A stretch of DNA of 64,000 nucleotides from Candidatus Aquidulcis sp. (GTDB taxonomy: Bacteria; Chloroflexota; Anaerolineae; UBA4142). A model generated the notes under the pieces. That model was not told where the DNA came from and did no database searches. It saw only the letters and a program-made list of their open reading frames with translations. Shown here piece after piece: positions 144 through 60,889 of this stretch. Each line of letters begins with the position of its first letter. Position 1 is the stretch's first letter. A program made the translations under genes and the position numbers. The stretch lies in the NCBI GenBank assembly GCA_020723345.1, contig DYJA01000008.1, positions 1-64,000 of the forward strand. The letters are read 5' to 3'.

Positions 144-2222
144 TTACACCAAACGCAATACGACGAGAATCACGTCAATCACCTTGATGCCGATGAACGG
201 CGCGATGATGCCGCCGACGCCGTAGATCAAAAGATTGTCGCGCAGCAGTTGCGCCGCGCCGACCGGACGATACGGCACGCCGCGCAGCGCCAGCGGAATC
301 AGCGCGACGATGATCAGCGCGTTGAAGATGACCGCCGAAAGCACCGCGCTGTGCGGCGTCGCCAGTCCCATAAAATTTAGGGCTTGCAGCGCGGGGTACG
401 TCGTCGCGAACGCGGCGGGAATGATCGCGAAATATTTGGCGACATCGTTCGCGATGCTGAACGTCGCCAACGCGCCGCGCGTCATCAACAACTGCTTGCC
501 AATTTCGACGATGTCGATCAACTTGGTCGGATTGCTGTCGAGGTCGATCATGTTCGCGGCTTCGCGCGCGGGCTGCGTGCCGGTGTTCATCGCGACCGCG
601 ACGTCGGCTTGCGCGAGCGCGGGCGCGTCGTTCGTGCCGTCGCCGGTCATCGCGATCAAACGACCCCCGGCTTGGTACTCGCGAATGAGTTTCAGTTTTG
701 TCTCCGGCGTCGCCTGCGCGAGAAAATCGTCCACGCCGGCTTCGGCGGCAATCGCGGCGGCGGTCAACGGATTGTCGCCGGTGATCATCACCGTCTTGAT
801 TCCCATCTTCCGCAATTGCGCGAACCGTTCTCGAATTCCGCCCTTGACAATGTCTTTGAGATGAATGACGCCGAGCGCGTCGCCGTTGCGGACGACGACG
901 AGCGGCGTGCCGCCATGCCTGGCAATGTTCTCGACCGCGCGCTCCAAATCCATCGGGACGTGCCTGCCCTGATTCCGAATCAGACTGAGCATCGTGTCGG
1001 GCGCGCCTTTACGAATTTCCGTTCCGTTGAAATTGACGCCGCTCATGCGCGTCTGCGCGGTGAAGGGAATAAACGTCATGCCATCCTGGGTCTCTCCGCC
1101 CGCGCTGACCGAGCGTCCGCGCAAGCCGTATTTTTCTTTGGCGAGCACGACGATGCTGCGCCCTTCCGGCGTTTCGTCGGCGAGCGACGACAACTGCGCG
1201 GCTTGCGCGAGTTCGGTTCCGTTTCCGCCGTTCACCGAAATAAATTCGACGGCTTGACGATTGCCGAGCGTGATCGTCCCGGTCTTGTCGAGCAGCAGCA
1301 CGTCGACATCTCCGGCGGCTTCGACCGCGCGACCCGACAGCGCGATCACGTTGCGGCGAATCAAGCGATCCATTCCCGCGATGCCGATCGCGGAGAGCAA
1401 GCCACCAATCGTCGTCGGGATCAGACAGACGAGGAGCGCGACAAGCACGGTGATTGTGATCGGCGTCCCGGCTCCGGCGGATTGCACGCTGTAGATCGAA
1501 AACGGCAAAAGCGTGACGCACACGCCGAGAAAAATGATCGTGAACGCGGCGAGCAAAATATTCAGCGCGATTTCGTTCGGCGTCTTTTGGCGTTTCGCGC
1601 CTTCAACCAAACCGATCATCCGATCTATAAAGCCCTCGCCCGGATTCGCGGTCACGCGCACGATCAGCCAATCGGAAAGAACGCGCGTGCCGCCGGTCAC
1701 CGCGCTGCGGTCGCCGCCGGATTCGCGAATCACCGGCGCGCTTTCGCCGGTCACCGCGCTTTCGTCCACCGACGCGATCCCTTCGATCACCTCGCCGTCC
1801 GCCGGAATCAGATCGCCCGGTTCGACGAGAAACGTATCATCTTTGCGGAGCGCGGCGGAGGGCGCCAATTCGAACGACGCGTCGCGTTGTGGCTTTTTCA
1901 GTTTTTTCGCTTGCGTGTCGCGGCGCGCGCGGCGCAGCGTTTCGGCTTGCGCCTTGCCGCGTCCTTCGGCAAGCGCTTCCGAAAAATTCGCAAAGAGTAC
2001 GGTGAACCAGAGCCAAATCGAAATCGCGCCGATGAACGCGGCGGGCGCTTCGCCTTGCCCCAGCATCGCCTGAACCCCCAAGATCGTCGTCAACGCGCTG
2101 CCGACTTGTACGACGAACATCACCGGGTTGCGCGCCATCCGGCGCGGATCGAGTTTGACGAACGCGTCGATCAGCGCGCGGCGATAAATTTCTTGATGGG
2201 CGCGAATTTCTTTATCAGACAT
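144..2222 (-). CDS. kdpB: Potassium-transporting P-type ATPase subunit B (KdpB)
   Basis: This is the catalytic subunit of the KdpFABC high-affinity K+ pump, which hydrolyses ATP at the cytoplasmic face. The 692-residue protein is full length for the family. Visible motifs are TGES (about 158-161, actuator domain), DKTGT (312-316, phosphorylated Asp) and the hinge motif [11 protein letters not shown] near residue 510. Several hydrophobic helices occur in the N-terminal, central and C-terminal parts. The start ATG at 2222 has GAGGA seven bases upstream. It lies downstream of kdpA, separated by a 76-bp gap filled with a repeat. kdpC should follow beyond the left edge. Identification is firm. Confidence 0.98.
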
Positions 2223-4155: not shown

Positions 4156-4248
4156 TTATTTCCCTTCCACGCGCTCGCAGAGCGAAATGTAGCCAAGCGT
4201 CGCCTCGAAAAACACGACGGTGAGAGCGAACAACAAAAGATCAGTCAC
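4156..4248 (-). CDS. Short hydrophobic peptide at the head of the kdp operon
   Basis: A 30-residue reading frame starts at GTG 4248 behind a strong ribosome site (GGAGGC about seven bases upstream). It encodes a hydrophobic helix followed by a polar tail, beginning MTDLLLFALTVVFFEATLGY and ending CERVEGK. Similar very short peptides ending in a Cys-Glu-Arg motif precede kdpF in many bacteria, but I know of no assigned function. A role as an accessory subunit of the pump is inference from position. Confidence 0.75.
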   Translation of the reverse strand: MTDLLLFALTVVFFEATLGYISLCERVEGK

Positions 4249-4607
4249 AGACTTGCCTCCGGTCCGAAAATCCGTTCATACTGTATGCTGATTCAGTTCA
4301 ATTGCGCGACAAGAAAAGTCCTGGAGAGGTCAAGAAACCGTCAAGAAAATGGATGGCCGGCTCAGAAAAGCGGATGGGGCGTTCAATTGAACGCTCCTAC
4401 CCGATTGCACAATCGCTGCGTGGATTCGCTACGGAGGGAAAACGAAAATGGGGTAATATAAAACGCGCCGTAAGGGTTTCCAGATCAGGTAATCCTTGCA
4501 GCGCGTTTATTTCAGCCGCGATGGCCGACTCTTCGCGAATCCCCGTGAACAGAAAAGAAGATTCACGCAGATTCGTGCAAGTTCGCGGACGAACATCTTC
4601 GTTCGAA
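4249..4607. other. Gap between the kdp operon and the transposase remnant
   Basis: No convincing gene is seen. The part next to the kdp operon must hold its promoter, but I could not assign clear boxes. It contains a small palindrome (GGCGTTCAATTGAACGC, about 4379-4395). A hairpin at 4461-4508 is preceded by GGAGGGAAAACGAAAATG and resembles an element at 54774-54849. Confidence 0.5.
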
Positions 4608-5105
4608 ATGAAGCGCAGTTATTACTACTGCCCGCACTGTCAGCAGGGTCTTTTTCCCCTCGACCAACAAAAGTCTTTGGGCGGACGTGTAGCGAAATGG
4701 TCGCGAAACTGGCAGTCGAGTTATGCGGTTGGATGACTCCTGCCGAGACCGAGACGATCTTGGATCAACTGGGCGGCATTACCTTTTCGGGTACCAGCGT
4801 CTGGCGGCGCGTATTGCTATGATACCAAAGTCCTTGGGGATGGTGCCCAGTGGATTTGGCAAAGCGTGGTGACAGAACATTTCAGTACGAGTCGCCAAGT
4901 GGTAGATTGGTATCATGCGACCGAACATCTCTATACCGCTGGGCATGTGGTGCATGGCAAAGGGATAGCCGAAGCGACGCGCTGGGTCAAGGCAATGGAA
5001 AAACCGTTGTATCAAGGACAGACTTGGGAGGTGTCGCATCACATCACGGGCTTGGCGCAGGAACATCCCACCCTCGTCGAGAAATTACAGACGGAGGTTG
5101 CCCCT
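4608..5105 (+). pseudogene. ISKra4-family transposase remnant
   Basis: Three blocks in different reading frames align in order to an ISKra4-type transposase. They are a zinc-finger-like block (YYYCPHCQQGLFPLDQQ), a central helical block ending ITFSGTSVWRRV near 4810, and a catalytic block (GDGAQWIW, then VVDWYHATEHL) at 4826-5105. A frame change lies near 4690. A stop follows WRRV, and roughly a hundred residues between the second and third blocks are missing, as is the C-terminus with the last acidic residue. The element is dead. Terminal repeats were not found. Confidence 0.8.
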
Positions 5106-17174: not shown

Positions 17175-17273
17175 TGTCATGGTTTGTAGTCAGCGACGCA
17201 GCGCAGTTTGCGGAGTCGCGTTGCGTGTCATGGTTTGTAGTCAGCGACGCAGCGCAGTTTGCGGAGTCGCGTT
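17175..17273. repeat. Two tandem copies of a 51-bp unit
   Basis: The unit beginning TGTCATGGTTTGTAGTCAGC occurs at 17175-17225 and again, nearly whole, at 17226-17273. A complementary arm (CTGACTACGAAC) follows at about 17322, so the region can also fold on itself. Confidence 0.75.
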
Positions 17274-17344
17274 GTCCGCGCGCGCAAGGCGGCTCTCCGC
17301 AAAAGAACGCTGCGTGCCTGACTACGAACGAGTGTTGATGGAAT

Positions 17345-35689: not shown

Positions 35690-36415
35690 ATGGCTTTTCA
35701 TTGGATAATCGCGCCACTATCGCAGAGGAGCATTGCATTGAAACATACCTGGGTTTGGATCGCAATTGGCTTGGGAATTCTGGATTTATTTCTGACGATC
35801 ACCGTGCATCTGCGCGTGTGGCAGACTTGCGATTGGAACTCGCTCATTGCGACTCAAGCCGCGTTGCCGCGCTGGGTGGACTTGCCGTTCTCGATTCTCA
35901 GTTTGATCGGCGCTGCCGAAGTGACGGGGCTGATCTTTCTCGCGCTCGTTTTCTACGCGCGTCCCGCGCGACGTGTGCCGCTGATTCTCGCGTTCGGCGT
36001 TGCGACGCTGATCGAATTGATCGGCAAAACGATTGTCAATCAGCCCACGACGCCGGCGTACTTGTTGCGGTACGTCTCGCTCTTTCCGCTTCTCAGCGCG
36101 AAGATCAACCCGGGATTTTCATTCCCATCGGGACACGCGCTGCGGACGACGTTCATCATCATCGTGTTGATCGAGATGATCGCGTCCAGTTCGCTGCGCC
36201 GCGTGACGAAGAATGGGCTGTACGCTTTCCTATTGGCGTTTGAAGCGGTGATGATCGTCAGCCGCGTCTATCTCGCCGAGCACTGGCTGACCGATGTGAT
36301 CGGCGGCATAATGCTGGGCGCGGCATTCGCGCTGATCGCGCTGGCGGTCGCCGAATGGAATTCGACGTCTAATCAGGTGGAAACTCGTCCTGAGCGCAAT
36401 CGAAGGATCCGATGA
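35690..36415 (+). CDS. PAP2-family membrane phosphatase
   Basis: This membrane protein of six predicted helices carries the PAP2 signature in pieces: KTIVNQPTTPAYLL, FSFPSGHALRTTF (catalytic His) and SRVYLAEHWLTDVIGG (second His and Asp). It probably dephosphorylates a lipid phosphate such as undecaprenyl diphosphate. The start is either ATG 35690 (close behind the promoter) or TTG 35738, which has GAGGAG upstream. The last residues (VETRPERNRRIR) come from the repeat at 36374-36493. Confidence 0.88.
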   Translation: MAFHWIIAPLSQRSIALKHTWVWIAIGLGILDLFLTITVHLRVWQTCDWNSLIATQAALPRWVDLPFSILSLIGAAEVTGLIFLALVFYARPARRVPLILAFGVATLIELIGKTIVNQPTTPAYLLRYVSLFPLLSAKINPGFSFPSGHALRTTFIIIVLIEMIASSSLRRVTKNGLYAFLLAFEAVMIVSRVYLAEHWLTDVIGGIMLGAAFALIALAVAEWNSTSNQVETRPERNRRIR

Positions 36416-36493
36416 ATCGGATCGAACGTGCGCGCTCAACACGTTTCAACGTGTTTCCACCTTTTTGAGCCGACGGCTTGCAACCGTCGGCGG
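36374..36493. repeat. Tandem covarying-hairpin element, copy D
   Basis: Hairpins: GATCCGAT/ATCGGATC (36407-36424), AACACGTT/AACGTGTT (36438-36455) and GCCGACGG/CCGTCGGC (36469-36492). The linker TCCACCTTTTTGA corresponds to TCCACCTCGCTGAGAC of the other copies. Confidence 0.7.
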
Positions 36494-36495
36494 CT

Positions 36496-36524
36496 TTGAC
36501 ATCCCCCTTTCGATCGGATAGAAT
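36496..36524 (+). promoter_or_regulatory. Strong predicted promoter for the YeeE/YedE gene
   Basis: TTGACA (36496-36501), a 17-base spacer and TAGAAT (36519-36524). The GTG at 36531 lies six bases after the -10 box, so the mRNA would begin at this GTG. The element supports translation from upstream of the in-frame TGA. Confidence 0.75.
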
Positions 36525-36530
36525 GAACCC

Positions 36531-37496
36531 GTGAACGCAATACTTTTCGGCGCGCTCGTCGGCGCGCTGTTTGGATATGTGTCGCAGCGTGGTCGCTTTT
36601 GAATGTTGTCCGCCTTTTTCGAGGTGATCACCGGTCGTGCGCCGGACACGTTGCGCGCGTACTTGCTCGCGGTGCTTGTGGAAATGCTCGCGGTCAACGC
36701 GTTCATCGAATTTGGCGGCGTCGAAATTCCGTACTCGCATTTCTTCGGACTGGCGACCGCGCTCGGCGGATTCGCGCTCGGACTCGGCATGGTGTTGGCG
36801 ATGGGCTGCGCGGGTTCGGTTTTTTATCGCGCGGGCGAAGGCAAATTCGACTACGTCGTCGTCATCGCCGCGTACGGCTTGAGCGCGTGGCTCACTGCCA
36901 ATTGGCTCGTCGCGCCGATCCGGCAATTCCTCGGCGGCGAAGGAATTCGCATGGCGTTGCCGCGCGCGCTCGGTTTGGATCGTTGGATCACGATCGCGGT
37001 GATTGTGCTGCTCGCGCTCTTGTGGTTCCTCCGCGACCGGCATCGCCTTGCAATGATGGAAAGTTGGAGCTCGCTGCGGACAGGCATCGCGCTCGGCGTC
37101 GTCGGCGCGCTCGCGTGGATCACGTCGACGGTGATCGGTCAGCCGTCGGGCTTGGGGACCGTCGAAGGGAGCGCGAACATCGCCGAGTTGATTCTGCGCG
37201 CCGATCTGTCCGCGCTCGATTGGCATTTCTTTCTCGTCGTCGCGATTCCGCTTGGATCGTACGTCGCGAGCGTGCGGCGCGGCAAATCGCCCGCGCTGCC
37301 GGTGAAATCGAAGCGCATTCCGCAGGCGATGCTCGGCGGCGCGTTCATGGGGGTTGGCGCGACGATTGCGGGCGGCGACAATATTTTTCACGGACTCGCC
37401 GGCGTCCCGATTCTCGCGCTGAGCAGCATCGTCGTGATGATTTTTGTTTTTGCGGGCGTGTGGGTGGGAATCAAACTCAAATGGCTTGGAACGTAG
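36531..37496 (+). CDS. YeeE/YedE-family transporter, candidate selenoprotein (TGA = Sec24)
   Basis: Reading from GTG 36531 gives 321 residues if the TGA at 36600-36602 is decoded. The frame reads GALFGYVSQRGRF, then TGA, then MLSAFFEVITGRAPDTLRAY. In this family that position is a conserved Cys (QRGRFCM). The second conserved Cys is present in LGMVLAMGCAGSVFYRAGEG (residue 93). Spacing between the two equals the Cys22-Cys91 pair I recall for the thiosulfate importer TsuA (YeeE). About nine membrane helices are predicted. The third conserved Cys region reads GATIAGGDNIFHGL, with Asp283. No ribosome site precedes ATG 36603. A pseudogene or sequencing error remains possible. Confidence 0.72.
36607..36648 (+). 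promoter_or_regulatory. Candidate bacterial SECIS hairpin
   Basis: Downstream of the TGA, TGTCCG (36607-36612) can pair with CGGACA (36643-36648). Inside, CGA-GGT (36620-36625) pairs with ACC and TCG (36630-36637) across a two-base bulge. This leaves the loop GATC, whose first base is G, 23 bases after the TGA. Bacterial SECIS elements have a G near the start of the apical loop at about this distance. Drawn by eye; not folded by program. Confidence 0.45.
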
Positions 37497-60575: not shown

Positions 60576-60876
60576 GATTGCCCTTTCGTAGGACAAGTTT
60601 TCAGAACTTGTCCCTGACGGACAAATTCTGGAAATTTGCCCCACGGTACGACGTTTTTCTGTCTTCGCGCGGTTAGCTCGTAGGACAAGTTTTCAGAACT
60701 TGTCCCTGACGGACAAATTCTGGAAATGTGTCCCACGGTACGGCGACTTTCAGTCTGCGCGCGGTTAGCTCGTGGGACAAGTTTTCAGAACTTGTCTCTG
60801 ACGGACAAATTCTGGAAATTTGTCCCACGGTACGGCGACATTCTGCCCTCGCGCGGTTAGCTCGTAGGACAAGTTT
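60576..60876. other. REP array, no gene
   Basis: This stretch is essentially filled by the tandem REP units described below. Confidence 0.8.
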
Positions 60877-60889
60877 TCAGAACTTGTCC
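60587..60889. repeat. Tandem array of 92-bp REP units
   Basis: Units start at 60587, 60679, 60771 and 60863 (the last is partial), a strict 92-bp period. Each has two palindromes: GGACAAGTT with AACTTGTCC around TTCAG, and GGACAAATT with AATTTGTCC. A GCGCGGTTAGCTCGT spacer joins units. The transposase stop codon lies in the last partial unit. Confidence 0.92.

Follow-up and report, generated by a model that had tools for sequence, protein, structure and literature searches.

The window analysed here is a 64,000-nucleotide stretch of a Candidatus Aquidulcis sp. draft genome of 6.3 Mb, and the locus of interest (contig C128) holds a gene of the YeeE/TsuA family that reads from a GTG start at 36531 to a TAG stop at 37496, with a TGA at codon 24 as its sole interruption. 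The features of this locus are given below.

36496..36524, forward strand: sigma-70-type promoter, TTGACA-17-TAGAAT, with the transcript start predicted at or adjoining GTG 36531
36531..37496, forward strand: gene for a predicted selenocysteine (Sec)-containing YeeE/TsuA-like membrane protein of 321 residues, GTG start, TAG stop
36600..36602, forward strand: UGA codon 24, predicted Sec, in the TsuA Cys22 column, based on the five-genome TGA, the homologue Cys, and the machinery
36611..36626, forward strand: conserved hairpin 1, 5 bp, two pairs with compensatory change
36631..36645, forward strand: conserved hairpin 2, the bSECIS candidate, 5-bp stem, loop CGUGC (36636-36640), 33 nt past the UGA
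36807..36809, forward strand: Cys93 codon TGC, in the TsuA Cys91 column by alignment
37377..37379, forward strand: Asp283 codon GAC, in the TsuA Cys293 column, Asp in all five Sec forms

Elsewhere, the window contains a tandem repeat (60586-60889; 92-bp unit repeated 3.3 times, 91% matches) and a perfect 51-bp duplication (17175-17274).

The original prediction placed an in-frame TGA at a conserved cysteine of the family, within a frame open on either side and with a 69-residue spacing to the next conserved cysteine. All three points are borne out: apart from the TGA, the frame is open from start to stop, and in the alignment with TsuA (6LEO) the TGA falls at Cys22 and codon 93 at Cys91. Read through, the frame encodes a full-length PF04143 Sulf_transp protein (188.9 bits in a profile search, against a gathering score of 27). 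The near-consensus promoter announced upstream of the TGA is also found, with 11 of 12 matches against 0.1 expected; TTGACA at 36496 is separated by a 17-nt spacer from TAGAAT, which ends at 36524. Among the relatives, G001 and G002 keep this promoter, as does G004 with a spacer of 16 nt, within upstream DNA that has otherwise diverged, and wherever it is kept the -10 box lies 6-10 nt before the start codon; in G003, no such promoter is present in the upstream stretch read. The transcript thus probably starts at or beside the GTG—i.e. upstream of the UGA—and would be leaderless.

Orthologues are present in four other assemblies, all Chloroflexota MAGs, with 90, 78, 65, and 50% identity to the window protein, and these four TGA relatives are the sole matches returned by a scan of genome contigs. 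The TGA stands at the identical column in all five Sec genes (window and four relatives), and none of the relatives has any other internal stop. Because the separate assemblies all give TGA at the same codon, rather than TGC or TGT, sequencing error at 36600 is excluded. A pseudogene or an error, in which a Cys codon (TGC or TGT, one base away) would have turned into TGA by chance, is exceedingly improbable, as five genomes share the codon even at 50% identity, in genes that are otherwise intact, and its conservation already refutes chance.

The predicted exchange of Cys and TGA among homologues is likewise seen, with Cys at this column in 28 of 28 non-TGA homologues, a count covering full-family homologues that have the Cys22-type site. 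The half-length proteins L032 and L035 have Ala or Ser at the Sec24 column, and both sit on another branch of the tree, while the Sec forms make up a single clade with support of 100/100. The regular stop codon of Sec-yeeE in all four relatives is TGA, as it is for the upstream PAP2 gene in the window, so TGA is not generally reassigned to sense. No relative of the Sec-YeeE protein was found in the viral contigs searched, and the plasmid records searched have distant Cys-type YeeE only.

The genome of the window encodes the machinery expected if Sec is inserted, and all four components that the original prediction had proposed to look for are found. Specifically, there is one strong tRNA-Sec match (76.3 bits; called tRNA-SeC with anticodon TCA by ARAGORN), and profile searches recover SelA (594 bits), SelB (361 bits, full length covered), and SelD (357 bits), the last with its own in-frame TGA within CAGUASK. 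Sec systems are widespread across the order, with selA in 15 of 20 genomes and tRNA-Sec in 17 of 20, and both are present in all five genomes that carry Sec-yeeE.

SelD of the window's genome is by sequence itself a selenoprotein, with its UGA at L050 1531-1533 and a hairpin (loop AGUUG) 32 nt downstream. In G004 (C347), Sec-yeeE is followed, after about 2.9 kb and just past UPF0182, by a tRNA-Sec gene (L104 3035-3126, minus strand), of which a second copy is on C435; in the window's genome, tRNA-Sec is on a contig other than that of Sec-yeeE.

Downstream of the TGA, RNAalifold predicts both hairpins from the five Sec sequences that make up the structure alignment, and both are conserved in all five genes. 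Pair cells are kept in 98% of cases, compared with 28-44% when one side is slid, and three pairs have changed on both sides, giving 5 compensatory cells, a number matched or exceeded in 0 of 500 shuffles. These compensatory changes fall at codon third positions; the clearest covariation, for example, is at column pair 33/45, where the last base of a Thr codon is paired with the last base of a Pro codon (ACC/CCG, ACT/CCA, and ACG/CCC). The full set of pairs does not form at these hairpin positions in Cys homologues. An Rfam search of 36400-36800 gave no match.

The published bSECIS model has a stem of 4-16 bp, a loop of 3-9 nt whose first or second base is G, a distance of 16-37 nt from the UGA, and a minimum free energy of -7.5 kcal/mol or lower (PMC13188914). 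In all five genes, the stem (5 bp, 4 in G003), the loop (G at position 2), and the spacing (33 nt) of hairpin 2 fit this model. Its energy is marginal, at -7.0 kcal/mol in the window and -5.2 in G003, with -8.9, -7.4, and -8.9 in the other three, against the cut-off of -7.5. A simple bSECIS rule gives many chance hits, with 19% of the window's TGA contexts carrying a hairpin at -5 or better, and as such it was not counted as proof. Similarly, the 63-nt stretch after the TGA ranks 27 of 301 gene windows by energy and among the top few by covariation, so that the evidence for the hairpins is covariation and position, not stability. The original prediction had pointed to another hairpin, at 23 bases past the TGA and probably GGT-GATC-ACC in sequence. 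This structure is present, yet it is not conserved among the relatives; it was rejected as the SECIS, and the candidate was moved to a different hairpin.

Together, the machinery, the TGA kept in relatives, the Cys in homologues, and the conserved hairpins support the predicted Sec insertion, and from these sequence comparisons we hold with high confidence that TGA 36600-36602 is a selenocysteine codon. A second reading of the same codon takes the UGA as a stop, with a 23-residue leader released and translation reinitiated at the adjoining ATG (TGAATG) to give a 297-residue protein. The TGAATG arrangement is indeed found in 5 of 5 Sec genes, and a mechanical ORF call yields the ATG-started frame. 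However, the 23 residues form the first helix of the family fold, with the alignment to TsuA starting at residue 5; family members with Cys at this column usually have Met next to it (e.g. RGRFCMNSAF); and, as was claimed, no ribosome site is visible before the ATG. Reinitiation would also leave the covarying hairpins and the Sec/Cys exchange unexplained. We thus regard it as very unlikely, though it could occur as a by-product under selenium shortage. It follows for annotation that genes of this kind are missed when a mechanical ORF call begins at the ATG after the UGA, dropping the first membrane helix.

The protein is predicted by AlphaFold2 (24 sequences) with a mean pLDDT of 82 and a pTM of 0.85, and the best structure matches to this fold are TsuA/YeeE proteins (TM 0.85-0.89; TsuA 0.88). 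The PF04143 fold is shared over its whole length with TsuA/YeeE (Spirochaeta thermophila, PDB 6LEO and 8K1R; E. coli YeeE). In TsuA, Cys293, Cys91, and Cys22 are the first, second, and third cysteines of the thiosulfate path, and Cys22 adjoins YeeD's active cysteine at the interface with the cytoplasm (PMC11073785). In the window protein, sequence mapping places Sec24 at Cys22 and Asp283 at Cys293, while Cys93 retains Cys91, so the three pore cysteines of TsuA are not present as such. The Cys293 column has Asp in 5 of 5 Sec forms, compared with Cys in 25 of 25 full-length Cys homologues. The original prediction held TsuA Cys22 and Cys91 to be essential; this stands for Cys91 but not for Cys22, as the pair termed indispensable is Cys91 and Cys293 (PMC11582611). 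What most sets this subfamily apart in the alignment is that, within a single clade, two of the three path residues have been exchanged. As Asp replaces Cys293, plain TsuA function cannot be assumed, and the entry-side Asp suggests a substrate or step unlike the thiosulfate relay.

No NCBIfam model covers the window protein above its cut-off. The scores for TsuA models are 158.5 of 400 (NF052577) and 131.1 of 645 (NF041049), and those for the YedE/FdhT putative selenium transporter, which belongs to the same superfamily, are 77.8 of 350 (NF033796) and 40.8 of 200 (TIGR04112); YedE has a proposed role in selenium metabolism (PMC5322559). With scores below the curated cut-offs for both TsuA and YedE, the protein is filed as PF04143, not as TsuA. 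The related SoxT and PmpA/PmpB proteins are YeeE-like with cysteines at the TsuA positions, but these are Cys and not Sec, and the Pmp proteins are half-length (PMC11582611). A Sec-containing YeeE/YedE protein, WP_012471001.1, is already listed in reviews (PMC13188914, PMC9312934), one of which gives the motif GUxSG. It is likewise a PF04143 selenoprotein, but this motif corresponds to the GCxSG cysteine (TsuA Cys91 type) rather than to RGRFC (Cys22 type), a placement made by motif alone. Our literature search found no description of Sec at the Cys22 position or in this Chloroflexota clade, and no experimental study of a Sec-YeeE protein. Sec in the YeeE family is therefore already known, while Sec at the Cys22 position with changed pore residues appears, from these sequences, to be new.

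A second type of Sec-YeeE was also observed in two genomes. It is half-length and PmpB-like, with an in-frame TGA in GAGFUPGTCAAG, at the TsuA Cys91 position, and the two genes are located as follows.

G003:C229, L035 1501-2007 and within L102 at about 4230-4800, forward strand: second Sec-YeeE with in-frame TGA
G012:C19, L032, TGA 1726-1728, minus strand: second Sec-YeeE with in-frame TGA

A hairpin with a GGU loop lies 18 nt past the UGA, closed by a pair whose two bases have changed together (U-A to A-U). In G003, this gene is preceded by a Cys-type PmpA-like half and followed by genes for a PhsA-like molybdopterin reductase, 4Fe-4S and NrfD proteins, and a cytochrome.

For the full-length protein, we propose that transcription would begin at the GTG, ahead of the UGA, and that ribosomes would insert Sec at codon 24, aided by the hairpin with the CGUGC loop 33 nt downstream. 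The pore line Asp283-Cys93-Sec24 would then stand in for Cys293-Cys91-Cys22 of TsuA and, by analogy with TsuA, Sec24 would place a selenolate at the pore's exit to the cytoplasm, to take or pass on a sulfur- or selenium-containing ion. Sec might, as the original prediction supposed, make this a more reactive site for sulfur or selenium handling. The most likely reading, to which we give about an even chance, is that the protein is a chalcogen-ion transporter with Sec24 as its cytoplasmic-side acceptor.

A role as a sensor or redox switch of the sulfur or selenium state, with Sec inserted and no transport, as proposed for SoxT1B, is a serious rival to this reading, if a distinctly less probable one. 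SoxT1B, a member of the same family, acts in signalling and does not feed oxidation (PMC11582611), the Cys293 that is indispensable in TsuA is lost in the Sec forms, and no TusA gene adjoins Sec-yeeE. Conversely, no regulator gene adjoins it either; its neighbours are PAP2 upstream and UPF0182 downstream, which offer no functional clue. TusA-family genes are found in all five genomes, none adjoining Sec-yeeE, and the window gene also differs from TsuA in having no YeeD gene beside it. Separately, on another contig of the window's genome, a YeeE/YedE-like paralogue without TGA (L012; G000:C53:55500-56270; 372-aa frame) adjoins a TusA-family gene.

Whether the protein transports or senses, we give even weight to the combined proposal that an undescribed Sec-YeeE subfamily, in one Chloroflexota family and having an Asp-Cys-Sec pore, uses its Sec in chalcogen import or sensing. 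Predicted selenoproteins are seldom membrane transporters, and if the transporter reading is true, this would be one whose Sec itself takes part in substrate movement. As the residue sits on a path mapped in TsuA structures with thiosulfate, the roles of Sec and Cys in the movement of chalcogen ions may be tested by swapping the two.
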